This document shows positions 5,136 to 33,479 of a stretch of DNA of 64,000 bases, piece by piece (the stretch's first letter is position 1; each line of letters begins with the position of its first letter). Under the pieces are notes generated by a model. It ran no database searches and was not told the origin of the DNA. It saw only the letters and a list, made by a program, of their open reading frames with translations. The translations under genes and the position numbers were made by a program. Origin of the DNA: Bacteroidota bacterium (lineage in GTDB: Bacteria; Bacteroidota; Bacteroidia; Bacteroidales; Prolixibacteraceae). Where the stretch lies: positions 62,001 to 126,000 of the forward strand of contig JAJUGZ010000001.1 in the NCBI GenBank assembly GCA_029265715.1, written 5' to 3'.

Positions 5136-7322
5136 TTATTGAACTGCATGCATGATTTCGCTCCAGTTACTGATCCCGATGATTGATTTATAGGGGTCGA
5201 AAATACGTTCCTCCTGATCGGTATCAGCAGCTTGGTAAGCATACCAGACCGGTTTTTTACCTCCCGGGTCGGTGGTGTCGTCGGGGAAGCGGCGCAAGCC
5301 GATCCGCAAACCATCTTCTGCACGGTTATCAATCCAGTTGTGCCATTGGAAAGCGTCGATCCCATCAAGGTTCTTCATCTTTTTCCAGGTGTAGGCAAAT
5401 CCTGCCGCCTGTTCTTTCAAATCCTGATCGCCGTAGGTCTTCGAATTGGTGCCGTTTTCCGACAGCCAGAGAGTTCGTTTGATGGTGCCTTTGTATTTAT
5501 TTTCCGGCTTCTTGATCCAGGCATCCAGTACTTCCAGGTTTTTGAAGGTGACCAATGCCGAACTCATGCTGAAAGTGGCGTTGGCATCGTTCCAGGTTTT
5601 GGGTTCAAACAAGTTTTCAGGATACGGGTGATAAGCCACAGCCCATTGAAAATCGCCTTCGGCATTGCAATAATCCTGCATGGTTTTCAGCATGTCTTTG
5701 GTGGCATAATACTTCGCTTCACAAGGCTCAGTCCATGAATGGGTGAAGGAAGCGAACACCTCGCTGTAGGCATCGTACTGCCGGGCTATGTTGTAGCATA
5801 AGCGCATCGATTTGATGTAGGTATCCATAAAAACTATCATGGGTTTGTCGCCCATGTTGGTCCACGAAAGCCCGGCGTCCACTTCGTTGTGCATGATCCA
5901 GTGGTGAATGCGCCCGTAGGCGTTGTCGCTACGGCAATAGCGGCTGGCCAGAAAATCGAGCGCAGCAGCATAGCAGTTCAGGCTTTCGGCGGTGGTCATG
6001 TTAGGCATAGTATAAATGCCGTCGGAAGTGTAATTCGGATGTTGGAGCAATCTACCGATTTCAGGATCGGCACAATGAGCGGCTTTCTGTACCAGAATGA
6101 TGGCCGCAACCACAATGTTTTTCGACTGGGTAGTTTGCAGCGTCTTATCGAGTGCTCCAACCTTTGCCTGATCGAAATAGTAGGTTTTGTCGCCATAGGT
6201 ATGAGCAATCGCATTGGATCGTGGTTGCAGGTACATGAATTCGGTAAAAGCAATATTGACGGTGGCGCTGGTGATGTGCAGGTCGTCCAGGTCGGTCTGG
6301 AAACCGCGTTCGGCAGCGAAACCACCCAAACCTTTACGTCCTGATGGCTTCTGTGCCTGAAGGTTTTGAGAAGCCGGAATCTGGTCGGCATAACGGGCGC
6401 TGGAAACAATTTCGTCGGAAGAAGCTCCGGTTTTGGCAATTGCCCATTTCGACAAGGCCCGATCGTATTTAAACCCGTCGCGGGTCACAAACCGGTCGAG
6501 ATCAACCGAGAACGAAGGGCTACTGAGCGCCGTTGTGTTCTGAAATTTGGTAATCTGGGTCAGTTGATCGTAAGGAGCCACTTCGCAAAGGCTGAATTTC
6601 CCGTCGCCTGAATAGTTTCCCTTGATACTGACCGTTGAAGCGCTGACTTTAACTTCAGTAACATGTGAAGTATAGCTTGCTGCAAGGTATTTTTTAATAT
6701 TCGATTCGAGTAAAAGATCTTCTGCGATCTGGTCTTCGCGGGCTTTAGCCAGCGCGGCTTCTTCGGCATTGCGGACACGGAATTGCATGTTGCGGATCTG
6801 AATAACCACCCCCGACTCATTCCCAAAATCGAGGCGAAGAAAATCTCCGGCATTTCCCCAGCTAAACTTTTTAACGTATTCTCCCAAATCGACCGAATAA
6901 GTTGTCCAGCTTATCGCTGAAGGAACCGTTGCCGTTTTTAATGAACGTTCTTCTGAAACCGGGGCCCCCAGAAAAATCTGCAAATTACTGATGTCTTTCG
7001 TACTTTGGTAATCGAAGGTAAAAACTACGTGATCTGAAGCATTGGATTTAATTAACGGGGCCAATGACAAATAAGGATCTTCTCCGGAAGTGATCAATTC
7101 GTACTGAAAAGTCCCTTTTCGGGTTATCTGAATTTGGTTTCCTGATGACTCATCAATGCTCATATAACTCAGAAAGGAAACCGGGACCGTCGGTTCGGGC
7201 AACGAAGAATCTTCTTTCCCGCACGATAACAGGATACTGCCCGTGAGCAGGAAAAAACAAACACTACGACAGGTTACCCTCCCGAAAAAATCAGCTGATA
7301 ATATATCCTTTCTTGATTTCAT
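5136..7322 (-). CDS. DUF5722-family lipoprotein with N-terminal beta-sandwich-like domain; putative glycosidase
   Basis: MKSRKD start at 7322 with lipobox LLTGSILLSC is more plausible than the track start at 7403, which overlaps the upstream gene. The C-terminal part (NIAFTEFMYLQPRSNAIAHTY..., IHHWIMHNEVDAGLSWTNMG, LSENGTNS) looks like DUF5722 proteins. Confidence 0.65.
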   Translation of the reverse strand: MKSRKDILSADFFGRVTCRSVCFFLLTGSILLSCGKEDSSLPEPTVPVSFLSYMSIDESSGNQIQITRKGTFQYELITSGEDPYLSLAPLIKSNASDHVVFTFDYQSTKDISNLQIFLGAPVSEERSLKTATVPSAISWTTYSVDLGEYVKKFSWGNAGDFLRLDFGNESGVVIQIRNMQFRVRNAEEAALAKAREDQIAEDLLLESNIKKYLAASYTSHVTEVKVSASTVSIKGNYSGDGKFSLCEVAPYDQLTQITKFQNTTALSSPSFSVDLDRFVTRDGFKYDRALSKWAIAKTGASSDEIVSSARYADQIPASQNLQAQKPSGRKGLGGFAAERGFQTDLDDLHITSATVNIAFTEFMYLQPRSNAIAHTYGDKTYYFDQAKVGALDKTLQTTQSKNIVVAAIILVQKAAHCADPEIGRLLQHPNYTSDGIYTMPNMTTAESLNCYAAALDFLASRYCRSDNAYGRIHHWIMHNEVDAGLSWTNMGDKPMIVFMDTYIKSMRLCYNIARQYDAYSEVFASFTHSWTEPCEAKYYATKDMLKTMQDYCNAEGDFQWAVAYHPYPENLFEPKTWNDANATFSMSSALVTFKNLEVLDAWIKKPENKYKGTIKRTLWLSENGTNSKTYGDQDLKEQAAGFAYTWKKMKNLDGIDAFQWHNWIDNRAEDGLRIGLRRFPDDTTDPGGKKPVWYAYQAADTDQEERIFDPYKSIIGISNWSEIMHAVQ

Positions 7323-7348
7323 TTCTTCTGCAAAAAGTGGTTGCTGCT

Positions 7349-9118
7349 CTATCTGGCAATTTCTCTGAATAGTATTTGCTTCCGGTATCCGGAGCCCTGA
7401 CATACAGTGGAATCCATCAAATGATAAACCGGCGACAGCTTGATGTCAGTCCCCTGAATACGAAAATTGTCGCGCCCAACTTTATCAATTATAATTCCCT
7501 TCGGAACAGAAATCTCAGTTTCACTGTCATGTCCCAACAATAAGGGACCATAGAACATCCTGACTGTACCCGGCTTCGTATGAGCCAGATTAGCAACTCC
7601 CTCAACGCCAGATTTAAAAGTGAAAGCATATTCAATACGATCCCCGACTTTGAACTCACGGACAACACGTATAAATCCATTCTTCTCCACTGCCTCTGTT
7701 TCTTGGTGGTTGACAAATATTTCCGGATCTTGCACCCATGAGGGGACGAAAAATTGGAGACTCAGCTTAGATGGATTTCTCAAACTATCGATTTGCAGAG
7801 TCACCATATTCTCAAACGGGTAATCGGTGTGTTGTGAAATTGTAATTGGGCCGCCAGATAAACGAAACGAAGCCGAACTTTCGTAAAATGCCGGGACAAG
7901 AATGGTGTCCCCTTTCTGGAAATAACTATATTCAACAGCCCTTCCCAAGCCCTCGCCCCCCCTCATCGAGCAACACCAAAAAGCTTCGTCGGCTTTCACC
8001 GAAAGGAAATTATCAGCCGGACCGGGGCAATTATCGCATCCAAAACCACCGTTTCCACGTTGTGTATGTCCAAGGGCATTATAATAAATCAACTGAGCAT
8101 CTTCCAGATAATGAAATAATTGCGTGTACCGCCACAACTGAACTGCCAACAAATAAGAATCGACAATGGCGCAGGGTTCAGTCCATTCCGGACGTTCAAA
8201 CCAGTTGAAGTTCTCATAATTTTCAGTCATAGCCTGTTCCCGGTATAGTTGATAACGTTTCTCAACTTTGGAGAGTAACTCTTTTTCCCCGGTAATTTCA
8301 TAGTACCTCAACGCCGCACGCAAACCAGTAAGGGTTGCATGAGTTTGAGCTTTTATCCCAACCAAATCCATTTCAAAGAAACGGGCCATCATCTCCTCAA
8401 TCAAAGCTTTCAACGGGGCAGTAGGAAACAAACCGTACGCCTGCACTACTCCATCCATAAAAATGAAGTCGCAGCCTACATCGGTCGAAAGTTTCCAACC
8501 ATTCACTATGTTGACCGAAGAGCCTGACATGCCGCCAGTTCCGGCTATCCGTTCTGCCGGATCAATCGGATAATTCCGGTGATGTCCGGAGGTTGGTAAA
8601 GCCAGGTTTTGAATGATCCCTTCAATGACTGTTTTTACGTTTGGATCTTTCTTCCACTGGTAATATTCGCACAGCCCACGCAACAACCAGCCATGACCCG
8701 AAAGTTGCTGCTCGTCGATTGTATCGCCCTGCAGCGGGCCTAAATATCCATTCCGGTTCAGTTTTTCAGGCAATATCCGGATCATTTCATCCAGATATTT
8801 TGGGGTACGATACGTTGCACGAGCTTCCATGACCAAGCCAAGAATGGTCCGCCCCTCTTTATCGCCTGGCCATCCGGCCGATGTTGGATGATGCTGTTTC
8901 GGGAAAACATTTTCCGGATAATAGATTTCCGTCTCGAGCCGGTCGAAATTTTTCATGGCCCGCTGAAACAATTCCCCTTTTATCCGAACATGATTAAATT
9001 CAATCGATTTTAAGGCAACCGCCTTTTCTGGCAGGGTTCTACACGAAACAAAAAACAACAGCAGGGGACATGCCAACAAGTGCGCTTTATTGCACAGACT
9101 ATTTTTTTTAAAATTCAT
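7349..9118 (-). CDS. DUF1680 / GH127-GH146-like glycosidase (beta-L-arabinofuranosidase-like)
   Basis: 589 aa lipoprotein (LLLFFVSC); SAGWPGDKEGRTILGLVMEARATYRTP, GFGCDNCPGP...FWCCSMRGGEGLGRAVEYSYF. Adjacent cysteines and overall layout resemble DUF1680. Confidence 0.6.
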   Translation of the reverse strand: MNFKKNSLCNKAHLLACPLLLFFVSCRTLPEKAVALKSIEFNHVRIKGELFQRAMKNFDRLETEIYYPENVFPKQHHPTSAGWPGDKEGRTILGLVMEARATYRTPKYLDEMIRILPEKLNRNGYLGPLQGDTIDEQQLSGHGWLLRGLCEYYQWKKDPNVKTVIEGIIQNLALPTSGHHRNYPIDPAERIAGTGGMSGSSVNIVNGWKLSTDVGCDFIFMDGVVQAYGLFPTAPLKALIEEMMARFFEMDLVGIKAQTHATLTGLRAALRYYEITGEKELLSKVEKRYQLYREQAMTENYENFNWFERPEWTEPCAIVDSYLLAVQLWRYTQLFHYLEDAQLIYYNALGHTQRGNGGFGCDNCPGPADNFLSVKADEAFWCCSMRGGEGLGRAVEYSYFQKGDTILVPAFYESSASFRLSGGPITISQHTDYPFENMVTLQIDSLRNPSKLSLQFFVPSWVQDPEIFVNHQETEAVEKNGFIRVVREFKVGDRIEYAFTFKSGVEGVANLAHTKPGTVRMFYGPLLLGHDSETEISVPKGIIIDKVGRDNFRIQGTDIKLSPVYHLMDSTVCQGSGYRKQILFREIAR

Positions 9119-11865: not shown

Positions 11866-13857
11866 TTATAGTTTTACATTTACTGACTGCCCATTTTTAA
11901 TGACTTTGGAAAAACAGGTGGATGCCGATTTCACCTGAACCCAAACTGATGAGTTTTTTCGGCAAACCTCGATATCACATACCTGTCCATTCAGACAGAC
12001 ATTCTTTAATGCCATCCGGGTCCAGCCATCGGGCAAATGAGGCGTTAACGCGAATGATTTAAGCCCGGTCGGACGGAGGCCAAACAACCCTTCGGTAAAA
12101 ATGCGGCAATACAAGCCACTCTCAGCCGACAAATGACGCTGTCCACCCTCCGGATAAGCCTCTACCGGATATGGGACATGTTCGCCCAGCAAACGTCGTT
12201 GGGAATAATATTGCAAATATTTGATCGCCTTTTCAGTCTCGCCAGCCTGAAGCACACCCCTCAGCGCATAAAGCGTTGAACGGTCCCAGAAAGTCTGATC
12301 CCCGGCTTGTGTCGCCAGCCCATCCTCCGTCCATAACCGAGGAGAAAATAACGCATCGATTGTTCCTCTGGCCCGATCCTGAATCTCAACAGTCAACGGA
12401 ATACAAATCCACGCCCGCAATACATCATTCCCCTCGTAATAGCGGTAGGTATTAAATCCTTCCACCGTGCACCCAAAATAGTTCCCGATATTGGCATACA
12501 GCTCTCGTGCCTCTTCCTGGTATTGCTGAACCAGCGATGCAGAAACGCCCAGATCATGCCCCAGAAAGCTTGCCGAGCGCAAGGCATCGTAATACAAACA
12601 GGAGGTACACAGATTGGCTTTCCCGGACGGGAAACGTCCTTCCAGCTCATCCGAATCAGAAGCAACCACACCCTCGGGGGTAAGCTTCCGTCTGCAATAT
12701 TCCAGACACCATTCGATCAAAGGCCAGAGTTTTTGTGCGGTAACCTGATCGCCAAACGATAATGCAAAACGCGAAGCCCCATAAGCGATCATGGCTGCAT
12801 CTCCCCGATCGCCGGCCCCATTCCAAATATCCAGTCCTTCGGCAATGATTGAACTTGGTATTGGACGGTATTCCGGATTCATAAAGCGGGCAAAATGCAG
12901 ATACGCATTTAGCGAAGCTTCATTTCCCTTGGCATATCCCAAAAACGGGAAAAACGGACCAACGTACTCAGCCTGATCATTCGCCCAGATGGCAGCATAA
13001 TAAGCCTCGCCTCCCGGGCTATGCAGATACCCGCCTCGTGTTTTATATATACTTTCTGACGCTCTGATCTTTGCAAACGCAAAAGCTCGGTTTAAAACAG
13101 AATCGGGGGTTTCCAGCACAAGATGCTCCCACCATTGTTTTATCAGATCCTGCCGACTGAGTTTTTCATCCGGAACAGCCATCAGCGTAGTTGATTTTCC
13201 CTGGGGCTTTGCAGTAATCCGCAAAAACCACGATACCGACTCACCTGGCTTAAGCCAATAAAAACCACCGCCCAGCGTTTCAATCGAAACCTGATAACTA
13301 CCAGTAACGCCCCGTTCCGGATCGGATGTTGTAACCGACCGATATTGCGGAACTTCTACCTCCATTCGCCCGGCTGATTTATTTTCCAGCTTATACTCTT
13401 CGTAATAAGCCGGATGGGTCGTGGATGGGAAAACAGTGCGGACAAGCCGAAGCTGTGAACTTTCACTTACCACCTCCATCATTCCGTATAGTTTTATAGC
13501 CGAAGTTTCCATTGCCAGCATCAATTTGCCATTAATCCTGAGTTTTGACACATAATCTTCATTTTCATCCAGAATGAAGCTTGCATGTGTATTGTTTGGA
13601 ATAGTGCGGAGCATAGGCCAAACAAGCCTTCGCTGCAACTGAAACGATCGGTCGCTGTTAACTCCGTAACGCAAAATCACCGATAAGCTGTCGCCACTCA
13701 TTTCCACATGATCGACATGAGGAATAGTTGTACCAATTTGCCAAACAATTCCGCCATCCGGGGTTAACTTCCACCGGCTTGTTGTAGCAAAAATTTCTCC
13801 CAACAGGAGACACGCCATGACTACACAAGCTATTTTCCGACCAATATTTTCAACCAT
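11866..13857 (-). CDS. Secreted (alpha/alpha)6 six-hairpin-type glycosidase, family not assigned
   Basis: 663 aa with signal peptide. GGEAYYAAIWANDQAEYVGPFFPFLGY, GLDIWNGAGDRGDAAMIAYGASRFAL and a C-terminal GLFGLRPTGLKSFALTPHLPDGW beta-domain signature are typical of six-hairpin glycosidases. I could not place it in a specific GH family. Confidence 0.5.
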   Translation of the reverse strand: MVENIGRKIACVVMACLLLGEIFATTSRWKLTPDGGIVWQIGTTIPHVDHVEMSGDSLSVILRYGVNSDRSFQLQRRLVWPMLRTIPNNTHASFILDENEDYVSKLRINGKLMLAMETSAIKLYGMMEVVSESSQLRLVRTVFPSTTHPAYYEEYKLENKSAGRMEVEVPQYRSVTTSDPERGVTGSYQVSIETLGGGFYWLKPGESVSWFLRITAKPQGKSTTLMAVPDEKLSRQDLIKQWWEHLVLETPDSVLNRAFAFAKIRASESIYKTRGGYLHSPGGEAYYAAIWANDQAEYVGPFFPFLGYAKGNEASLNAYLHFARFMNPEYRPIPSSIIAEGLDIWNGAGDRGDAAMIAYGASRFALSFGDQVTAQKLWPLIEWCLEYCRRKLTPEGVVASDSDELEGRFPSGKANLCTSCLYYDALRSASFLGHDLGVSASLVQQYQEEARELYANIGNYFGCTVEGFNTYRYYEGNDVLRAWICIPLTVEIQDRARGTIDALFSPRLWTEDGLATQAGDQTFWDRSTLYALRGVLQAGETEKAIKYLQYYSQRRLLGEHVPYPVEAYPEGGQRHLSAESGLYCRIFTEGLFGLRPTGLKSFALTPHLPDGWTRMALKNVCLNGQVCDIEVCRKNSSVWVQVKSASTCFSKVIKNGQSVNVKL

Positions 13858-21357: not shown

Positions 21358-22431
21358 TCATGGCATATAGTAGAAATAAATTTCAGCCATGTGCATCCAG
21401 GTTTGTCCGCCGCTTAACCCAATTAGTTTGATGTAACGTCCGTAGACTGGTGCAAACGAATATTCGTGCCCAAAGATTTGCTGAACATCAAAATCAAACT
21501 CTCCGATGTTTGTGAAGTTCTGTCCGTCCAGGCTGTACAGGAATTGTACCCGGTTGGGGGCCCACTGCCCATTCCCGTTGTCGTCCTGCCGACGAACCAG
21601 TTCAATCTTATTGAGATTATATTCACTTCCCAGATCGATTACAATATTATGAGGGTAACCTGATAATTGGGTGTGCCAGTAGGTATAAATATCGTTATCA
21701 ATTAAATAAGATCCCAAACAACCACCCCAATCCGAAGAAACCGAATAAATACTCATTCCGTTCTTTGAAATTTCGCCCAACTTGGGACTTACATCGAATG
21801 TTCTTGAATCAGATTTTCCTCCGGATGTGTTTTCAACGTAAACAGTTAATGTAGTCGTTTCGACAAAACTTGCGACAATTCCCTTCCCCGAATTTCTGGC
21901 ATTAAATTTCTTTTCCTTTTTTATTCCCTTGCTGTCCAGAAAAGATACAACCACATAACACTCCACCCCTGTTTCATTCTTCCAGCTCACTTCAGCTCCT
22001 TGAACTGCAGACGCCACATTTACCGTGGTAGCCACATAGTCTTTCACAGCATCAGTGCTTAACGGTGCCGCAGAGATACTTGCCGGCGTCGAAGTTGCTC
22101 CGGAATAGCCATAACTGGTCAATGTAAAGGTATAGGTGTTTTCATCCGTAAAACCACCAATAATCACCCGGGTACGACCAGAGTCGTCGACGTCGAAACA
22201 GCTCACCTTTTTATTGACTTTTTCTCCATTCGCGTTCGTATATGACACCAACGTATAGTAGTAATCGTCATCCGAGGGATTTGTCCAATTTAAAATGACC
22301 GATCCGAAATACGGAGTTACCTGAACATCGGTCACCTGACTTATTGATCCGCCGCCATTATCATCATTCTCACAAGCAGTTATATAAGCGCATAAAATAA
22401 GCATCATCAATATATATAATAGCCTTTTCAT
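21358..22431 (-). CDS. Surface glycan-binding lipoprotein with Fn3-like/DUF4959-type repeats and C-terminal F5/8 type C domain
   Basis: 357 aa; CAYITACENDDN lipobox; VTPYFGSVILNWTNPSDDDYYYTLVSYTN; SYLIDNDIYTYWHTQLSGYPHNIVIDLGSEYNLNKIELVRRQ...GRYIKLIGLSGG discoidin-like. Confidence 0.75.
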   Translation of the reverse strand: MKRLLYILMMLILCAYITACENDDNGGGSISQVTDVQVTPYFGSVILNWTNPSDDDYYYTLVSYTNANGEKVNKKVSCFDVDDSGRTRVIIGGFTDENTYTFTLTSYGYSGATSTPASISAAPLSTDAVKDYVATTVNVASAVQGAEVSWKNETGVECYVVVSFLDSKGIKKEKKFNARNSGKGIVASFVETTTLTVYVENTSGGKSDSRTFDVSPKLGEISKNGMSIYSVSSDWGGCLGSYLIDNDIYTYWHTQLSGYPHNIVIDLGSEYNLNKIELVRRQDDNGNGQWAPNRVQFLYSLDGQNFTNIGEFDFDVQQIFGHEYSFAPVYGRYIKLIGLSGGQTWMHMAEIYFYYMP

Positions 22432-22503: not shown

Positions 22504-24693
22504 TTACCATCCTGGATTTTGCCAGTTGTTTCCATTTATACCAATTACTTTGACCACATCATCCTGATTAATTGGATACAATAACCACTTATCAGAAGAG
22601 CAGTTTCGGTTGTCAAACTTAAATCGCGTATAAGTCAACCCCGTTCCATTTTTGGTAATCTCCATTCCGGTAACAAACTTGTCAGTTTGATCCAGAATCT
22701 TCCAGCGACGAACATCGAAATAACGATGCTCTTCAAAAGCTAATTCAACCCGCCGTTCGTTTCGGTATTTGGCCTTGAAATCATCTGCCGACATACCGGC
22801 AGGGAAGTCGGGCATCCCGGCTCTTGCCCGCACCGCGTTAACTGCATCGCGGGCACTCATTGTCATTCCGGGGCCAAGGGTAACTTTAGTGTCTGGCCCA
22901 TTTGACTGATAAGCAGATTCGGCAAAATTCAGATATAGCTCTGCTAAGCGGAACAACCTGACTGCGCCATCGGCATTATTATTTAATCCTGATTTCCAGT
23001 TATTAAACTTACGCATATAATACCCGGTCCGTGTGTGGGTCCGGTTTGTTTGCGAGATTTCTTCAGCTCCGCCGACAAACGTTTCTATGCCACCAGAATA
23101 GCCTGAGCTCTTAACCTCAATCCGGATATTTTTAATTTTCATAGAAACGCCAGAATTACCCCCCAGGTCGAAGCGAATGTTATCTCCCGCATTTCCCCAG
23201 CCCAGAGAACCTGCTACAGCCGTAATATCAGCAGAGTATGTAGTCCACACGCTGGAACTTGGTATTGTTGCCGGATGCGTAGAACGACTTTCTGCTATTG
23301 CCGGTCCCAGGAAAAGTTGAGGCGCCACATCGGCCGAGCTCATATATTCAAATGCAAATACGACAGATGGCGGGTTGTTCAATCCTTCGGCTAATGGAGT
23401 TAAATAAACGTATGGATCGCCACCCGTGGTTGTCAATTCGTATGACCCGGTTGCAACTTCAGTTATTTCGAGTTCATTCGTTGTAGCCGTGAAATTTAAA
23501 TTGTAGGCATCATTACGGGGGGCAGCAGCTTGAAGATTTTTAGGAGCTCCATTATAATAAACCGATGCATAAAAACGAGGGTCACGACCTTCATAAGGAT
23601 GTTCCGGATCGTACCCGGAAGCTCTGTTAATAATAGGGTTCAGGTGGTTTGCATCGCTATAGCCTAAAATAGGAGCCAGCCCATTGGCCATTTCATAACA
23701 ATCTACCAGCTCCTGAGTCGGACATGGCCCGGCTTTATCCATGCCTGCAGTTGTTGGCAATCCGGCATATTTCCAGATTGCCATCTGCCCGCCAACCTGC
23801 AAAATGGTCTCCTTATCAACAGAGCGCTGATCATCAGAGTTTGTGATAAAATAGAGTGCATAGGCATTTTGCGCAGCATTTTCTACCGGTTCGTCATCGA
23901 ATAATTTGTAATCATGAGTCAAACACTGATATAACGCTTCTTTGTTTATTGCAGTCGCATCGGCCCACGAAAAAGTACCGTCAGACCATAGCGGACTAGC
24001 CGCATAAGTAACTGCCTCCGACATGATCGCATAGGGTACCGCGCGGGTCATCATTCCAAACTGGTTGTTATACACCTCCCAATGAAAACCATCTTGTGTA
24101 GCCGGAGCTTTTAAGGCTGAGTCACAATCAGCCAAAATAAATTTGACGACCTCGGAAAAAGAAGATTTCGTATCCTTTGAAAAGTCGTGATCGGTTCCCA
24201 ACGGTTTATCAAAAACCGGAACGCTGCCATACCTTTTGATCAACTGCAAATAATACAGTGCCCGCAATGTGTGAGCCTGAGCAGCCCAACCTTTCTTTTC
24301 GTCGGCTGTTGCGTATGCCGTTGATGTCCAGATATTGGCCAGAAATACGTTACATTTTCGGATCCCCTCGTACAAAGAAGCCCACGGACTTCCATCAACA
24401 GAATAAGAAGGGTACGTATTTGCCGTAACAGAACCTGAATACCAGGCGCTATACCGGGATCCGGACGTATTATCATCAGCATCTTCCGCTTCATCGCACA
24501 TAGAAGCACGATCCATATAAGGAGCGGGACAATAGCCATAGCAGGAATTTAAATAGCCCATTGTCCGATACCTGTCCGAAAAGACTTGGTCCATTGTTAT
24601 ACGCCCATCCGGATCCAAGTCCAGTTGATCGTTGCAAGAATTCAAGAATCCGATCGCAACTGTTGTGATAAATAAGAAAATATATCTTTTCAT
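22504..24693 (-). CDS. susD: SusD/RagB-like nutrient-binding lipoprotein with a ~125-aa inserted domain
   Basis: MKRYIFLFITTVAIGFLNSCNDQLDLDPDGRITMDQVFSD, RDPRFYASVYYNG, RTGYYMRKF, RLAELYLNFAE, NERRVELAFEEHRYFDVRRW, WQNPGW. The track start at 24735 falls in a hairpin repeat; MKRYIF at 24693 is better. Extra domain roughly at 23100-23480. Confidence 0.93.
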   Translation of the reverse strand: MKRYIFLFITTVAIGFLNSCNDQLDLDPDGRITMDQVFSDRYRTMGYLNSCYGYCPAPYMDRASMCDEAEDADDNTSGSRYSAWYSGSVTANTYPSYSVDGSPWASLYEGIRKCNVFLANIWTSTAYATADEKKGWAAQAHTLRALYYLQLIKRYGSVPVFDKPLGTDHDFSKDTKSSFSEVVKFILADCDSALKAPATQDGFHWEVYNNQFGMMTRAVPYAIMSEAVTYAASPLWSDGTFSWADATAINKEALYQCLTHDYKLFDDEPVENAAQNAYALYFITNSDDQRSVDKETILQVGGQMAIWKYAGLPTTAGMDKAGPCPTQELVDCYEMANGLAPILGYSDANHLNPIINRASGYDPEHPYEGRDPRFYASVYYNGAPKNLQAAAPRNDAYNLNFTATTNELEITEVATGSYELTTTGGDPYVYLTPLAEGLNNPPSVVFAFEYMSSADVAPQLFLGPAIAESRSTHPATIPSSSVWTTYSADITAVAGSLGWGNAGDNIRFDLGGNSGVSMKIKNIRIEVKSSGYSGGIETFVGGAEEISQTNRTHTRTGYYMRKFNNWKSGLNNNADGAVRLFRLAELYLNFAESAYQSNGPDTKVTLGPGMTMSARDAVNAVRARAGMPDFPAGMSADDFKAKYRNERRVELAFEEHRYFDVRRWKILDQTDKFVTGMEITKNGTGLTYTRFKFDNRNCSSDKWLLYPINQDDVVKVIGINGNNWQNPGW

Positions 24694-24719: not shown

Positions 24720-24790
24720 CAGATGGAATAGCCATGATCGGGTATTATCTTCATTATCTGCTGGTGTTTGTAAATCATGGCTATTTCATA
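24720..24790. repeat. Fourth, divergent copy of the hairpin (susC-susD intergenic)
   Basis: GATGGAATAGCCAT (24722-24735) ... ATGGCTATTTCAT (24777-24789), the same arms as at 9.2 and 9.3 kb but an unrelated loop. Confidence 0.7.
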
Positions 24791-24919: not shown

Positions 24920-27900
24920 CTAAAAGGTGACACTGATTCCTGCATTATAAACCCGATACACAGGAATGGCATCATAACTATTGGCTTCCGGGCCAAAATC
25001 ATTCGACTTCATTTTATCCCATGTCAGCAAATTCTGGCCGCTTAGAATTAACCGTATCTCACTCGCTGATAATGCCTTCGATATCCGATCGGAGAGTGTA
25101 TAGGATAATTCCACATTCTTGAGGCGCAAGTATGCTCGATTGTATTCATAATAATCGCTGGCCTCGTGACTTACCGATTTGGTAAGAGACAATGCGGGGG
25201 CTGTAATCTTTTCGCCATTGTTCCACCGTTCCTCGGTCCATGCATTTCGGTGCAAAGAGCCATACACCCCGTCGTAACTGGTTTCATAAACGCCAATCCC
25301 GCCATAAACCGACGACCATTTTCCAACACCCTGAAATAAAAAGCTCAGATCAAATGATTTATACCTGAACCCGCCAGAAAATCCATAGTAATAGCGGGGC
25401 ATATCTCCTGTCCCGATTGGGGCTTGGTCTTTCTCATCAATAACATGGTCTCCGTTCAGATCTTGGTACTTTAGGTCTCCAACGCGAGGTATTCCGAATG
25501 AATAAGTCAGCTCGCTGGCATCAACTTCTCCTTGGAAATTATAAAAACCATTGCCATTGCGATAATCAACCAAATACCCCCATGCTTGTCCATAAGAATA
25601 CCCTTCAGATCTCTTGCGATAAGCATAATCTTCCGATTTAAGAGCTTCCAACGACTTGATTTCCTTATTTTTAGCATACGTAATGTATCCACCCATCCGA
25701 ATCGAAAAATCTTTGGTCAGTTCCTTCTTGTAGTCGGCAGTAACCTCATATCCTTTATTTTCATATATACCAGCATTTGTTATTGGATAATTTCCAAGAG
25801 GAATCCCCTGATAAGTCGGAATATACGACGAAGGGTTCACGATCATATTATCTAAACGCTCATTAAAAATATCCACGCTTAACGAAAACTGGTTCAGTAA
25901 CCCCAAATCCAGTCCGTAATTCTGTTTTACGGTGTTTTCTGAAACATAATTTGGATTACCCACCTGATTTTCAGTAATTTTATACTGAAGAGCACCAATT
26001 GGGCCGCCTCCGCTAAAAGTTACATTATCGAGATAAGCAAACCGGTTTTGATTATCCTGATCATTGGCGGTTTTACCGTAAGAGGCTCTGACCTTTAAAT
26101 TGTCGACCCATTCAACATTTTTCATAAAACGTTCTTTTGATATGACCCAGGCTCCGGAAACAGCAGGGGTCCATGTATACCGATGACCTCTTGCATATTT
26201 TTCCGATCCGGAATACCCCACATCAAACTTCAGCATATACTTTTTGTTATACGCATAAGTTGCTTCGGCACCCGAACTCATCCGGTTGTATGGAAGACAC
26301 CATGGCGATCCATTATCTTCTTTTGACAGGTTCTGATAAAACATATAGGCCATCGCGGTAACAGCATGTTGCCCGAAAGTCCGCTGGTAATCCATCATTC
26401 CTTTGTAAGTGATGTGGTAGTAATACGACGATCCTTTGCCATAAGAGAGTGTCGTGTTATTATTTGATCCCTTTTTAACAAACGAAAGCGTTTCATCATC
26501 ATCGGTCCTCATCCATCTTTCATAATCTTGGGTTGTTGTCAGACTATTCACAGAGTTTGTCTGATACGCAACCACTCCTGATGCTTTCAATCCTGAAGCC
26601 AGAAAGCTCATGTCCAGATTTAACCCAAATTGTGAATAGATATTGGTTACTGTATGTCGTGTGTAACCAGAACGATTTAGCATGCCATAAGTCGGATCGC
26701 CAACCAAACTCGTTGTTACAACCTGATTGCCAGAAACAGCGCCAGTTTCAGGATCGATAACTGTCGGGGTAACAGGTCCGTATACAGTTGATGGCATATT
26801 AAACAGGCTTGAATACAATGTTTGCGAAAAAGTGCCGCCACCAGGAACCCGTTCCCTTTTTATATTTCCACTTAATTGCAGGTAAGCGCTTAAATAATCA
26901 TTGATTTTGGCATCGACATTTGAACGGAAGTTTGCCCAATCAAAATTCGGACTGGTATCATAGTCTGGCTGATCTGTTTTAAACTGACTTTTCTGATGCA
27001 TGACATTCACATTGGTAAAATACCGTACCCAGTTTGACCCACCGGATAAATCGACACCCACCCGCTGCATTTGAGCAAAATTCCGGAGAAATGTATCGTA
27101 CCAGTTCGTGTTCGGATACAAGTCAGGCTGTTCTCCCGAACGATATTTTTCGACTTGTTGATCAGTAAAAAAGTAATTTGGCCCTTTCCCGTCATTAAAG
27201 GCAGCCTGATTTCTCAATTGTGCATATTCTGCCGAACTAATAAAAGCCGGCTGAGTAGTCATTTGCTGCAACGATTCGTCAACCCTAACTTTTACATTAA
27301 GTTTCCCAAGCGAACCTCTCTTGGTCGTAACAACAATGACCCCATTAGCTCCCTGTATGCCGTATAATGCTTCGGTCGATGCATCTTTTAATACAGTTAC
27401 CGACTCAATTTCTGAAGGAGATATGTATTCCAGCGATTGATTGCTATTGTGCGCACATACAATCCCATCTATAATTACCAACGGCCCTTTAGCTCTGTTG
27501 GCACAAACACCTCGAACGTAAAGATCGGTATTGGCCCGGCCTAATTCGGATGAGGTTTCCCGGGTAAACAACCCCGGTAACCGGCCGGCAAAAGTCATAG
27601 GCAAATTAGCAACCGGAGATTTTTCTAGTTCTTCGCCGGTAACCGTTGATACCGCTCCAGACATTTCGCTCTTTCTCTGAGAAGAATATCCCAATTGAAT
27701 TATCTCATCTTCAGAATCTTCTATCAAATTGAGAATTACGTCAACCTGCATCGCATTCCCAATTTTCACAACCTTATCCGAATAGCCAATGCATGAAAAA
27801 ACCAGAGATTTGCTCGCATCATCGATAACTAAAGCATAGGTTCCGTCCGGCTGTGTCAAAGTCCGGCTATTCCCATTCTGCGTGCTAACAACAACCCCGG

Positions 27901-28036
27901 CAAGAGGTTTTCCCAATACATCACTGACGACTCCCTTTACAAAAGGAAGCTTATCATTTGCGCCTTGAGATACTCCAATGAATATAAAAATCAGCAAGGC
28001 CTGTATGAATGTTTTTATAATTATTTTATGTCTCAT
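24920..28036 (-). CDS. susC: SusC/RagA-like TonB-dependent outer membrane transporter (no STN domain)
   Basis: MRHKIIIKTF signal, FVKGVVSDVLGKPLAGVVVSTQNG carboxypeptidase-regulatory-like domain, plug (SPVANLPMTFAGRLPGL, VTVLKDASTEALYGIQGANGVIVVTTKRG), C-terminal LSGQNLLTWDKMKSNDFGPE...YNAGISVTF. Start corrected from the TTG at 28099. Confidence 0.95.
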   Translation of the reverse strand: MRHKIIIKTFIQALLIFIFIGVSQGANDKLPFVKGVVSDVLGKPLAGVVVSTQNGNSRTLTQPDGTYALVIDDASKSLVFSCIGYSDKVVKIGNAMQVDVILNLIEDSEDEIIQLGYSSQRKSEMSGAVSTVTGEELEKSPVANLPMTFAGRLPGLFTRETSSELGRANTDLYVRGVCANRAKGPLVIIDGIVCAHNSNQSLEYISPSEIESVTVLKDASTEALYGIQGANGVIVVTTKRGSLGKLNVKVRVDESLQQMTTQPAFISSAEYAQLRNQAAFNDGKGPNYFFTDQQVEKYRSGEQPDLYPNTNWYDTFLRNFAQMQRVGVDLSGGSNWVRYFTNVNVMHQKSQFKTDQPDYDTSPNFDWANFRSNVDAKINDYLSAYLQLSGNIKRERVPGGGTFSQTLYSSLFNMPSTVYGPVTPTVIDPETGAVSGNQVVTTSLVGDPTYGMLNRSGYTRHTVTNIYSQFGLNLDMSFLASGLKASGVVAYQTNSVNSLTTTQDYERWMRTDDDETLSFVKKGSNNNTTLSYGKGSSYYYHITYKGMMDYQRTFGQHAVTAMAYMFYQNLSKEDNGSPWCLPYNRMSSGAEATYAYNKKYMLKFDVGYSGSEKYARGHRYTWTPAVSGAWVISKERFMKNVEWVDNLKVRASYGKTANDQDNQNRFAYLDNVTFSGGGPIGALQYKITENQVGNPNYVSENTVKQNYGLDLGLLNQFSLSVDIFNERLDNMIVNPSSYIPTYQGIPLGNYPITNAGIYENKGYEVTADYKKELTKDFSIRMGGYITYAKNKEIKSLEALKSEDYAYRKRSEGYSYGQAWGYLVDYRNGNGFYNFQGEVDASELTYSFGIPRVGDLKYQDLNGDHVIDEKDQAPIGTGDMPRYYYGFSGGFRYKSFDLSFLFQGVGKWSSVYGGIGVYETSYDGVYGSLHRNAWTEERWNNGEKITAPALSLTKSVSHEASDYYEYNRAYLRLKNVELSYTLSDRISKALSASEIRLILSGQNLLTWDKMKSNDFGPEANSYDAIPVYRVYNAGISVTF

Positions 28037-28077
28037 ATTAATAATCTTTATTAGTCCAAAAACCAGCTTTCTGCTTG

Positions 28078-29964
28078 TTACCAACCCGGATTTTGCCAAT
28101 CCTCTCCGGTCAACGATTTCATCCGGTTGGCTTCGTTAAGTGAAATTGGACACTTCAAATACTTATTGGTATAACACTTTCGTTCGACTGAGCGTACCGG
28201 ACGACGGGTGTAAGTATAGGTCCCTTGATCGTTGCGATGAATCTCCATCGCAGTTATCCATTTATCCGTTTTAGACAAGTCACCATCCGGATTTGTCCAG
28301 CGTCGAACATCGAAATACCGAAACTCTTCCATCGCAAGTTCAACCCGACGTTCATGGCGTACACGAAGAATCATTTCTTCTTTTGACAAACCTGTCGGGA
28401 GCTCAGGCATGCCAACCCGGGCCCTGATCAGATCGACTGCTTCTTTGGCTTCATTTAAATGACCTGCTTCGGCTGCAGCTTCAGCTAAATTTAGATACAC
28501 TTCGCCCAAGCGGAATAATTTAAAATATGCCCCGCCTACAACATAATCGCCACCAGCAAATGGATGCAAGAATTTACGTTCGTAATAACCAGTCCGGGTT
28601 AAATACCTGGTTATTTTATCAATCCCTGTCTTTGGCTCTCCAGCCCAAGTTGCTATAATCCGGGTTCTATTTCCTTTCGCTGCCGGATAATTTTCTTTAC
28701 ATTCGGGTAGTTCGTCAAAATTCCAGAACGCTTTTCTCTTTGAACCATTATAATAAATAGATGCATAAAAGCGGGGATCGCGATTTTCATAGGGGTTGTT
28801 AGGATCGTACATTGTATTGACTGCATTGTAATTTGGTTCCGTATGTTTTTCATCCAAATACGGATTTGCCAGATCTAATACAGGCTTCCCATCAATTGTT
28901 TCGTATGAATCAACCAATTCCTGAGATGGACATGTCCCTGATTTATACCCATCCTGCGAACCAATCCCATCAATATTCCAGACATTTCCTTGCCCATCTC
29001 TACTTTGGTACAAGGTTTCCTTGTCAACCGGATTGGACGAATAGGCCATGGAATTTGTGAAGTATTCATTGTAGAGAGCAGCATATTTATTGGGGAAATA
29101 TGCTTCAGGAGATTCATAAACTTGCGGAAAATTTATCTTTGAATACAAAGCGTATCCTTGATTTTTAAGATTTTGAAGAACTGTTTTATTCATTTGATAC
29201 GCTTCTTCCCAATAATTTGCACCATTGTTATAAAGCGGACTGGCAGCATAAAGGATCATTCTGGATTTGATCGCTTCGGCCATCGCCTTGTTAACTCGTC
29301 CGGCTTCGCCTCCGGTTGTTATCCTCCAGGGTAACTCATTAACAGCCAAGGCGGCATTACAGTCTTCAATGATAAATTTTACAACTTCATAATAACTTGC
29401 TCTTTTCACCTGCGAGAAATCTCCGGCATAATCAAATGGTTCCCGCTCAATGGGTAATCCCATTCCAAACCAACGGAGTAATTCTGAATAATAATAAGCC
29501 CGAAGCAAATGAGCCTCCGCTTTCCACCGATTGCGGTCGCTTTCGTTTTTTACAGTTGCACCATCTATTCGACTTAAAAAAACAGAGCACATCCGAATCG
29601 AGTTCCAGTAGCGATCCCAATAATCACCGTTACCAGCTTCATCGCTAATATCAATGATCGGGTGACTGCTGGCTGATGCATCGCCATTATACATACGTCC
29701 CGACATAATCCATGATTCGGCTTCGGCGTCTGTATCCCATGCTTCATCACTCCATTCTACCGGTCCTCTGCTCCAAAAGAAATAACGATTTCCTTTAGCA
29801 GGCATGTTCTCATAGCAGCTATTTAAGTAAGCCGAAACTTTATCGTTATCAGCAAATATGTCGTCTTCAGATATTCTCCCGTCCGGAGCAACATCCAACG
29901 CTTCGGAACAGGCAAATAAAAGCAGAGTTATTCCTGCAAAAAATGGTATTATATATTTTTTCAT
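28078..29964 (-). CDS. susD: SusD/RagB-like nutrient-binding lipoprotein
   Basis: 628 aa; LLLFACSEALDVAPDGRISEDDIFADNDKVSAYLNSCYENMP, RDPRFYASIYYNG, RTGYYERKF, HERRVELAMEEFRYFDVRRW, WQNPGW. Confidence 0.95.
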   Translation of the reverse strand: MKKYIIPFFAGITLLLFACSEALDVAPDGRISEDDIFADNDKVSAYLNSCYENMPAKGNRYFFWSRGPVEWSDEAWDTDAEAESWIMSGRMYNGDASASSHPIIDISDEAGNGDYWDRYWNSIRMCSVFLSRIDGATVKNESDRNRWKAEAHLLRAYYYSELLRWFGMGLPIEREPFDYAGDFSQVKRASYYEVVKFIIEDCNAALAVNELPWRITTGGEAGRVNKAMAEAIKSRMILYAASPLYNNGANYWEEAYQMNKTVLQNLKNQGYALYSKINFPQVYESPEAYFPNKYAALYNEYFTNSMAYSSNPVDKETLYQSRDGQGNVWNIDGIGSQDGYKSGTCPSQELVDSYETIDGKPVLDLANPYLDEKHTEPNYNAVNTMYDPNNPYENRDPRFYASIYYNGSKRKAFWNFDELPECKENYPAAKGNRTRIIATWAGEPKTGIDKITRYLTRTGYYERKFLHPFAGGDYVVGGAYFKLFRLGEVYLNLAEAAAEAGHLNEAKEAVDLIRARVGMPELPTGLSKEEMILRVRHERRVELAMEEFRYFDVRRWTNPDGDLSKTDKWITAMEIHRNDQGTYTYTRRPVRSVERKCYTNKYLKCPISLNEANRMKSLTGEDWQNPGW

Positions 29965-29981: not shown

Positions 29982-32900
29982 TTAGAAAGTAATATTTGCC
30001 CCTAAATTGACCATTCTTGTTACAGGGTAGCCAATCGGATCTCCGTTCTCCGGATCAAGTCCTCCTATTCGTTGATGATCCCACACATAGAGGTTCTGCC
30101 CACTAACATATATCCTCAGTTTGCTGACATTCATTCGTTTCAAGCATGACGCACCTTGAATGGTATACCCCAGCTCAACATTTTTTAACCGGGTAAACGA
30201 ACGATTCATGATAAAAAAATCGTTGGCAACATGATTGGTGTTGCTATGAGTGCTTAATGCCGGATAGGTAATTTTATCTCCGTTTAAATATCTCTCCAGG
30301 GTCCAGGCTGTTTTGTGATAATCGTAATATGTACCCTCTTTAATATATTCATATACCCCCTGATCTGACCTCGTGCTTGAGAACTGACCAACTCCCTGGA
30401 AGAAAATGGAAAAGTCGATCAACTTGTAATTCAGGGAAAGTGTTACCCCGTAATTAATTCGGGGAATTGTCGGATTGCCAATAGGCACCTGGTCCTTATC
30501 ATTAATAACCCCGTCGTTATTCATGTCTATGTATTTAAAATCTCCCACCCTTGGGGTCCCAAAATCATAAGTCAACCCACTTGCCTGTATTTCTTCTTCT
30601 GACACCCAATATCCTCCATGGTCGTTCCAGTCAATTCTATACCCCCACGGTTGACCTAAGGAATACCCTTCGGTTCGGGTACGACATACATAGCTCTCAT
30701 CACGTTTTACTTCATCATCATTTTTCACGGTATTGTGGTTATAGCTGTAATTTCCCTTAACCATCACGGAAAGATCTTTGTTAATCGACTTGTTGTAGGT
30801 AAGTTCAATCTCGTAACCACGATTGTAGACCACTCCCATGTTTTGCAATGGAATGCGGCTCAAATAAACTCCCTGGAAAGTTGGCACAGTATGGCGGGTA
30901 ATCAGAATATCACTACGATGTTCAACAAAATAATCAAATGACCCATAGAAATCGTTGAATAATTGGAAATCTACCCCAATGTTTCTCTTCCAGGCGCTTT
31001 CCCAAGTCAGATTTTGATTTCCCCGGATACCTTCATAAACCTTTTTGCCATTCCCTAAACTCGATAGTGGACCATTTACGATCTGTGTATCATCGAGATA
31101 TAAAAACCGGGAATCACCCATCTTATCATTTCCGACTTTCCCATAAGATGCTCTAATTTTCAAATAATTAACGCTCTTGTTATCTTTCAGGAATTGTTCA
31201 TTACTCAAGACCCAACCTCCGGAAAAAGCGGGGAAAAATCCAAAGCGTTTTTTTGGCGAAAATTGTTCTGAACCATTATAACCCATATCAAATTCGCCAA
31301 AATACCGATCGTTATATGCATATGTTGCCCTGCCACACAAACCGATCACATTATGAGGTATTTCTCCGCCGTGATCCCAAAAATCCCTCTGAGCCAGAAG
31401 CATTCCACCAATATCGTGCTTCCCGAACTTTCGATTGTAATTAACAGATCCCTGCAAATTGATATTGTAATATGTCAATGCCGACTTGCTCACAGAAAGC
31501 AAACTCTCGCTATCTCGTTTCAACGAATAGCTCAATTCATCCGTTTCATAATTAATATTAGCCAGATAGAGCCTCTCTGATTTACCTCCCTCCAAAGTCG
31601 TACCGGCATAGGCATCATACGAAACCAACCCCTTCATATTTAACCCTTTGGTAATTAGCTTGCCTAAATCCCAGGTTAGTCCCAGCGAAGAGTTCAAATT
31701 CGAACGAACATCTCTTCGATAGCCACGGCGGTTCATAACCTCAAAAGCCGAACGGTCAAGATATCCGGGATCAACAACCTGCCCGGGAGCATAGCCAAAA
31801 CCAGCAATTGTTGTAGGCCCTGGAGTAATCGGCAAAATAGTTTTTGCCTGGTAAAAGAGATCCCGCATCATCCAACCATAATCAGACCCATACATTCCAC
31901 CCACATAAGGCATATTTACCTTTTCAATGTAACTGCCTAAATTGAGCAACATAGAAAGAGATTCTGAAATTTTATAATCCAGATTCGCACGGAACGTCCA
32001 TCTGTCCATCTTTGATGCAGGATCATATCCTAATAAGGATTTGGGTTCTGTATTTAGGTTACCTCCCTGATGCAAAAATCCCGCATTCATGAAATATTCA
32101 ACCTTATCAGTTCCTCCGGTTAAGTTGGCGCTCAATCGGGTCTGTGGTGAATACCTGGAGATAAACTCGCGGTAATAATCGTGATCCGGATAAATGTATT
32201 TACGAACTATTGCTTTTTGTTCATAATCCGGATCAGCCGGATCAAGCCCAATCAGCGGGTTTTTATATTTGGCAATAATCTCATCGCTATAAGGAACATC
32301 CTCTCCATCGTTTCGCATTGCTTCATTTCGTAACTCCAGATACTCCCAAGAGTGAAGGCGTTCGGGCTCTTTGGTAAATGAAGAATAACTTTGATCGGCG
32401 TTTATCGACAATTGCGATTTCCCTTTTTCTCCCCGTTTGGTCGTAATTAAGATTACACCATTTGCCCCCCGCACACCAAATACGGCAGTAGCTGAGGCAT
32501 CTTTCAAAATAGATACTGATGAAACCTCATGAGCATCAAGGGTTCGAATATTATCACGGGGAACACCATCGATGAGGATTAACGGACTCGTACCATTCAA
32601 GGTAGCTGCACCCCTTAAAAAAATCGTTGCATCGTCCATCCCCGGCTGGCCACCTCCAGCTTGAATAGAGGTTAACCCGGGTAACTTCCCGGCCAAAGCA
32701 TTATCAATAGTAGCTGCCGAACTTTGCGTTAGTTCCTTGGTTTGGACAGAAGCTACCGAACCTATAACCGAAATTTTCTTTTGAACTCCGTAACCAACTA
32801 CCACCACTTCTTCAACCCCCTGAACATCATCTTCCAATACCACATTCACTTCTGTTTGACTGGTGATGACAACTTCTTTGGTTTTCATCCCAACGAATGA

Positions 32901-33479
32901 AAATACCAACGTAGCTTTATCCGGAACCTTTGATAAGGTATACCGGCCATCCGGATCGGTTATCGTACCAATTGTTGTTTCCTTTACCATAACTGTTACT
33001 CCGGGAAGTGGGACTCCATTCACATCGGTCACTCTACCCTGAAGTGTTTTCAGCTCGACGGGTAAGGCCCATTGTTCAAGCAATGCTTTTGTTTCAGGAG
33101 AAACTTTCCGTTCGGGAACAATTACAATCTGCCGATCGAAGATGCGATAATGCAGATTCGTCCCGCTGAGTGCTTCGGTTAAAACTTCTTCGACCGAGGC
33201 CTTGTCAAAAACTGCACGTACTTTCCGATTCAGATCAACCTGACCGTCTTTGTAAAAAATAATGAACTCACTCTGCTCCTGAATCTTATCAAAGACCTGT
33301 TTGAGTGTACCATCTTCTATTCGAAGAGAAATCCGCGTACTTTGCGAATAGGTAGAATCGGCATATACACTGCCGATGCACAAGAGAAGAAGAAATAATG
33401 TTATTTTCATAACCCTAAAAACCAGTGCACAATAATCCCGTATATGGAAAAAATGAGCACAGATGCTACTTTTTTTCAT
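29982..33479 (-). CDS. susC: SusC/RagA-like TonB-dependent transporter with N-terminal STN signalling domain
   Basis: 1165 aa; RISLRIEDGTLKQVFDKIQEQSEFIIFYKDGQVDLNRKVRAVFDKASVEEVLTEAL (STN), LQGRVTDVNGVPLPGVTVMVKETTIGTITDPDGRY, VQGVEEVVVVGYGVQKK, TonB plug/barrel. Confidence 0.96.
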   Translation of the reverse strand: MKKSSICAHFFHIRDYCALVFRVMKITLFLLLLCIGSVYADSTYSQSTRISLRIEDGTLKQVFDKIQEQSEFIIFYKDGQVDLNRKVRAVFDKASVEEVLTEALSGTNLHYRIFDRQIVIVPERKVSPETKALLEQWALPVELKTLQGRVTDVNGVPLPGVTVMVKETTIGTITDPDGRYTLSKVPDKATLVFSFVGMKTKEVVITSQTEVNVVLEDDVQGVEEVVVVGYGVQKKISVIGSVASVQTKELTQSSAATIDNALAGKLPGLTSIQAGGGQPGMDDATIFLRGAATLNGTSPLILIDGVPRDNIRTLDAHEVSSVSILKDASATAVFGVRGANGVILITTKRGEKGKSQLSINADQSYSSFTKEPERLHSWEYLELRNEAMRNDGEDVPYSDEIIAKYKNPLIGLDPADPDYEQKAIVRKYIYPDHDYYREFISRYSPQTRLSANLTGGTDKVEYFMNAGFLHQGGNLNTEPKSLLGYDPASKMDRWTFRANLDYKISESLSMLLNLGSYIEKVNMPYVGGMYGSDYGWMMRDLFYQAKTILPITPGPTTIAGFGYAPGQVVDPGYLDRSAFEVMNRRGYRRDVRSNLNSSLGLTWDLGKLITKGLNMKGLVSYDAYAGTTLEGGKSERLYLANINYETDELSYSLKRDSESLLSVSKSALTYYNINLQGSVNYNRKFGKHDIGGMLLAQRDFWDHGGEIPHNVIGLCGRATYAYNDRYFGEFDMGYNGSEQFSPKKRFGFFPAFSGGWVLSNEQFLKDNKSVNYLKIRASYGKVGNDKMGDSRFLYLDDTQIVNGPLSSLGNGKKVYEGIRGNQNLTWESAWKRNIGVDFQLFNDFYGSFDYFVEHRSDILITRHTVPTFQGVYLSRIPLQNMGVVYNRGYEIELTYNKSINKDLSVMVKGNYSYNHNTVKNDDEVKRDESYVCRTRTEGYSLGQPWGYRIDWNDHGGYWVSEEEIQASGLTYDFGTPRVGDFKYIDMNNDGVINDKDQVPIGNPTIPRINYGVTLSLNYKLIDFSIFFQGVGQFSSTRSDQGVYEYIKEGTYYDYHKTAWTLERYLNGDKITYPALSTHSNTNHVANDFFIMNRSFTRLKNVELGYTIQGASCLKRMNVSKLRIYVSGQNLYVWDHQRIGGLDPENGDPIGYPVTRMVNLGANITF

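Follow-up and report, generated by a model that had tools for sequence, protein, structure and literature searches.

How does a domain found on an enzyme come to sit inside the lid of a transporter, and what might it do there? SusD proteins form the lid of SusC transporters. In the gene cluster studied here, one SusD lipoprotein contains a segment of about 125 residues that recurs in the DUF5722 protein, a putative endo-acting glycoside hydrolase encoded in the same cluster. The cluster around this SusD lies on the minus strand of the window, that is, of the whole 64,000-nucleotide stretch of a Bacteroidota contig that we analysed; its features are collected in Table 1. A sequence-only reading had placed the shared segment in these two proteins and proposed that a single glycan-binding or docking module serves both.

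Table 1. Features of the SusD cluster, in window coordinates
Feature	Coordinates	Strand	Basis or remark
SusD/RagB lipoprotein with inserted module	22504-24693	-	Start MKRYIFLF..., lipobox FLNSC
Whole insert in SusD	23089-23532	-	Residues 402-549, numbering from the ATG at 24735; limits set by the empty sites of orthologues L042 and L073
Module A core in SusD	23104-23478	-	Residues 420-544; predicted CBM-like beta-sandwich
Partner SusC (RagA/SusC TonB-dependent transporter)	24920-28099	-	TIGR04056, E 5.8e-215
Second SusD of the cluster, without insert	28078-29964	-	Sequence, Pfam, orthologue alignment
Second SusC	29982-33479	-	Reference SusC2 in the cluster comparison
SGBP-like lipoprotein, DUF4959 and F5/8 type C	21358-22431	-	Pfam
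DUF5722 protein, predicted lipoprotein (LLSC followed by GKED), putative endo-acting glycoside hydrolase	5136-7403	-	PF18989
Module A in the DUF5722 protein	6765-7139	-	Residues 89-213, N-terminal; BLASTP
DUF5722 domain	5154-6356	-	Residues 350-750, PF18989
Enzyme without Pfam family; homologues elsewhere carry module B in a loop, none here	3032-4846	-	Cluster comparison

The identities of both hosts are borne out by Pfam. The SusD matches PF07980 (SusD_RagB, E 4.6e-46) and PF14322 (SusD-like_3, E 1.5e-12), and its gene, which has an additional in-frame ATG further upstream, directly adjoins that of its partner SusC, an order repeated in loci L031, L032, L034 and L042. The DUF5722 protein matches PF18989 with E 5.1e-124 and 414.6 bits against a curated cut-off of 30.5. 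In both lipoproteins the lipobox precedes charged residues (e.g. CGKED), from which we infer a location outside the cell. HNE and SENG motifs in the DUF5722 part resemble the catalytic glutamates of clan GH-A, and a PDB sequence search returned no relative for this protein or for the enzyme without a Pfam family. Elsewhere in the window, a predicted glycoside hydrolase (11866-13857), whose only match, to the GH65 C-terminal domain, is weak, sits between a GH78 gene and two GH20 genes.

Full-length BLASTP of the SusD against the DUF5722 protein yields one significant segment, with 55 of 126 residues identical (44%, E 2e-30), at the places originally proposed. The pair has a Smith-Waterman score of 281, against 27 +/- 4.5 (maximum 50) for 2000 shuffles, a z of 56. 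We refer to this domain as module A and to a second one, introduced below, as module B; both names are coined in this analysis. The two copies of module A lie 16 kb apart and are the only two in the window's genome; the D, P, Y and R-x-D residues of the module do not vary among its hosts. Pfam gives no match for the segment in either host protein, and neither Pfam nor NCBIfam holds a model matching module A, also when 33 relatives are scanned singly. A PDB sequence search with the module A profile found no chain up to E 10, the chains of CBM29, CBM4, CBM11, CBM30 and CBM6 included.

The segment is not a standard SusD loop. The corresponding interval spans 189 aa here versus 16-120 aa (median about 50) in the 29 other SusDs of the genome, close orthologues lack the insert, and comparison with orthologues likewise finds none in the second SusD of the cluster, as had been stated. 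The loop lies between RDPRFYAxxYYNG and ETFVGG...RTGYY of the SusD core. Its location was correctly given; the limit on the RTGYY side can be refined. ETFVGG...THTRTGYY belongs to the core, and the insert of about 148 aa, with its module A core of about 125 aa, runs from about residue 402 to 549.

Orthologues of this SusD occur in three states at the insert site: empty, with module A or with module B. The site is empty in Parapedobacter defluvii (L042, YYNGAPRNLGGGSGRTVETFVGG), in L073, in L137 and in three more distant SusDs; the empty-site SusDs include a paralogue in MAG G024. Since orthologues have an empty site, the segment is an insertion into the SusD loop. Module A fills the loop in the window and in G010, G024, G034, G053 (L044), G138, L038, L041 and L045. 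At exactly the same site G084, G085 (L034), G092 (L037), G102 and G436 carry module B (SusD loci L075, L076, L078, L079 and L139), a different domain of about 125 residues. As profiles the two modules are not homologous (hhalign probability 0.5%), and a PDB sequence search with module B gave nothing useful. The 14 filled sites hold these two module types only, both of which recur on enzymes of the same cluster, and in two assemblies (G024 and G436) empty and filled SusD paralogues occur together. The loop looks like a socket in which modules can be exchanged. With module B at the same exchange site, the emphasis moves to this socket and away from a single shared domain.

Do the modules in the socket correspond to those on the enzymes? 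Eight of the nine genomes with module A on SusD also have it on a DUF5722 protein, and in six genomes, counting the window, the two genes are on one contig (the other five being L038, L041, L044, L045 and L143). All five genomes with module B on SusD also carry it on an enzyme related to the one without a Pfam family in the window, represented in G102 by a contig-end fragment only; in three of the five the enzyme is encoded on the same contig, close to SusD. In these enzymes module B is an insertion between GKPLIMAYP and FFTFRPGQPDY, which the window and Parapedobacter versions lack. The pairing has exceptions: in G034 module A is on SusD and the whole genome encodes neither an A nor a B enzyme, and L042 has module A on its DUF5722 enzyme and an empty SusD socket. 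P-values for co-occurrence are 6e-5 (A) and 2e-5 (B), confounded by shared cluster ancestry, and co-occurrence alone is no proof of matching because DUF5722 proteins with module A are present in nearly every such cluster, including the empty-socket L042. Where a genome has enzymes of one kind only, the socket matches in three of three cases, a small sample (A enzymes and module A in G000 and G138, B and B in G436). Where enzymes of both kinds are present, the socket may hold A, B or nothing, so only three genomes test matching.

Enzymes with module B are found at L032:11148-13652, L034:5097-7751, L037:3623-6124 and L160; the enzyme occurs with and without it, and its loop forms a further module socket within these clusters. 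An enzyme of about 493 residues with a weak GH130 match (L037:8121-9599, L033:868-2346, L105) has module B inserted as well.

Module A is present in 19 of the 140 genomes of the window's family and in 9 of 393 genomes spread over the order. By a genome-wide profile scan of contigs, built on a 10-row domain alignment, its carriers are Prolixibacteraceae, Dysgonomonadaceae (Proteiniphilum, Petrimonas), Sphingobacteriaceae (Parapedobacter) and one Bacteroidaceae bin; most relatives compared are metagenome bins, and a search of plasmids gave no match. The survey of architectures carrying the domain, which had been suggested as a check, returned several hosts. In DUF5722 proteins, most of which are lipoproteins, module A is N-terminal; in SusD it is in every case at the same loop; and in SGBP-type lipoproteins with DUF4998 or BACON it is C-terminal, the position held by the F5/8 type C domain in the window's own SGBP-like lipoprotein. 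Further hosts are NAGPA phosphodiester glycosidases and proteins with two or three copies. The NAGPA domain stands beside module A in L015 and L052:5471-8032. A Bacteroidaceae protein (L051:8456-10357) has one module A at each end and a middle part without a Pfam match. Divergent copies, up to three in tandem, occupy the N-terminal region of large secreted proteins (L028, L057 and L072; G014 and G307), followed in the G014 protein by List_Bact repeats.

Trees give some insight into the history of the socket. In trees of the SusD core without the insert (17-18 sequences), the A, B and empty states are intermixed, with 5-6 changes; a single B clade (p-AU 1.6e-10) and a single empty clade (p-AU 1.3e-5) are both rejected. 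The A-carrying SusD of the window is sister to the B-carrying SusD of L079 (bootstrap/SH-aLRT 100/100 in one tree and 94/94 in the other). An empty SusD (L073) and one with module A (L085) have cores 89-92% identical and come from the same metagenome bin, which may hold two strains. In the module A tree the SusD copies split into two groups or more. The window type has a weak placement, and another type, marked by a GGPQGG motif, branches next to the BACON lipoprotein L030. A SusD copy is not sister to the DUF5722 copy of its own cluster, so there was no recent copying between the two genes, and recent gene conversion between them is rejected. The B modules of SusDs and of enzymes are close kin, with no clean separation in the tree. 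When we looked for recombination breakpoints, the 5' and 3' parts of SusD gave similar identity rankings and no clear flank signature of swaps; the exchanges would thus be old enough to have left none.

Modelled by AlphaFold with 33 relatives, module A is an all-beta domain (pLDDT 93.3, pTM 0.86). Among the matches listed by Foldseek against the PDB, nearly all are carbohydrate-binding modules (CBMs), with probability 1.00, E from 6.5e-6 and TM up to 0.63: CBM29-2, CBM4, CBM11, CBM30, CBM6 and a hyaluronan-binding module, along with SGBP-B of B. thetaiotaomicron (7kwb/7kwc). A model of the full-length SusD from 11 homologues is poor (pLDDT 53), and in it the insert is still a compact beta unit (residues about 408-543). 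Module A is accordingly predicted to be a discrete CBM-like beta-sandwich, and because the predicted fold is that of carbohydrate-binding modules, we clearly prefer a glycan-binding module to a generic domain. The earlier proposal of a shared glycan-binding module is supported in part: SusD and enzyme share a discrete homologous domain with a predicted CBM fold, and the pairing recurs on one contig in five other genomes, with G034 and L042 as exceptions. The invariant R-x-D has an apparent parallel in the CBM29-2 mutants R112A/D114A named in PDB titles.

We consider it probable that the loop of the SusD lid is a socket that takes CBM-like modules of the kinds present on the surface enzymes of the cluster, adding a second glycan contact. 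Module A would be exposed on a surface loop of the lid and, by binding sugar, would provide a contact outside SusD's own binding cleft. The surface DUF5722 enzyme would be tethered to the polysaccharide by the same type of module, presumably through a common ligand. The polysaccharide would be held at the SusCD entrance while it is cut and the products are passed over, which may benefit uptake. A more specific account leaves us in two minds, leaning slightly to doubt: a SusD lineage with a dedicated socket may have had non-homologous glycan-binding modules swapped at one site by intragenic recombination, with selection keeping the kind found on the cluster's enzymes, so that both grip the same polysaccharide.

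Other explanations deserve weighing. The SusD loops of this genome do range from 16 to 120 aa, and the insert might be ordinary loop variation and its likeness to the DUF5722 segment a coincidence; the chance of this is negligible, since it is refuted by the alignment statistics (E 2e-30, z of 56 against shuffles), by the model of a domain predicted to fold independently and by the clean empty sites of orthologues. A less easily dismissed reading is that the loop merely tolerates inserts, which spread from gene to gene within the cluster as recombination hitch-hikers in the absence of selection for a matching ligand, the module being a spacer or neutral. Frequent changes of socket state (5-6 among 17-18 sequences), empty and filled paralogues sharing one assembly (G024, G436) and the insertion of module B into loops of two other proteins are all compatible with it. 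We think it rather unlikely, given that 14 filled sockets hold two module types only, both found on enzymes of the same cluster, and that the invariance of D, P, Y and R-x-D across hosts argues for retained function.

The A domains could also be protein-protein contacts that hold the DUF5722 enzyme to SusCD in a utilisome, which the sequence-only reading had entertained as docking. Both proteins are predicted outer-membrane lipoproteins of one cluster; SusCD pairs are known to assemble with surface enzymes and glycan-binding lipoproteins (PMC7618045); and the internal CBM112 of a GH26 has been suggested to help position that enzyme in the utilisome (PMC13357471). Against docking, which we regard as quite improbable, are the fold matches of module A to carbohydrate-binding modules, its occurrence without a partner copy (G034, L042), its presence on unrelated proteins, singly or in tandem (L015, L028, L051, L052), and the fact that module B takes its place at the same SusD site.

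No paper describing a SusD with an inserted CBM or other binding module was found in the open-licence literature, in agreement with the initial impression that the arrangement is undescribed. The closest precedent is CBM112, an internal CBM of Bacteroides GH26 mannanases that in related PULs is found at the end of SGBPs (PMC13357471, 2026). There, too, a surface lipoprotein of a PUL has a CBM embedded in one of its other domains, and related PULs have the CBM on the SGBP and an enzyme without it; the host, however, is a GH26 or SGBP, and no SusD is among the hosts listed (GH26, GH5, CE7, SGBP, unknown). Deletion of CBM112 left mannanase activity unchanged, and its authors propose a role tied to utilisome position (PMC13357471). 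One CBM112-like GH26-internal domain, picked by architecture from genome G158, gave no alignment with A or B.

The window SusD resembles other SusD/RagB lipoproteins in its Pfam core, its lipoprotein nature and a gene adjoining SusC, and differs in the CBM-like module in its loop, absent from the inspected PDB SusD alignments (3qnk, 5ck1, 5cjz). Module A shares the predicted beta-sandwich fold of CBM29, CBM4, CBM11, CBM30 and CBM6 but not their sequence, and like CBMs in general it is attached to putative carbohydrate-active enzymes and SGBP-like lipoproteins. Its terminal place on DUF4998/BACON lipoproteins elsewhere and the SGBP-B fold match recall SGBPs of the SusE/F type, whereas in the window the module is inside SusD itself rather than on a separate lipoprotein. 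In CE20 esterases a beta-sandwich is likewise inserted in the core domain of a PUL protein; that host is catalytic, and its GH2-type sandwich shapes the active site and is not common to SusD (PMC12313940).

These observations bear on how SusCD pairs gain specificity and how surface enzymes pass products on. Natural versions of this SusD core carry module A, module B or no module, which offers a directly testable handle. Modules A and B define two uncatalogued CBM-like families, the former by its predicted fold and the latter by architecture only, that would help to annotate gene clusters of Bacteroidota, and we predict that SusD sequences are worth searching for inserted binding modules. If selection does keep matching modules in a dedicated socket, swapping them would allow the capture range of a SusCD pair to be retuned.
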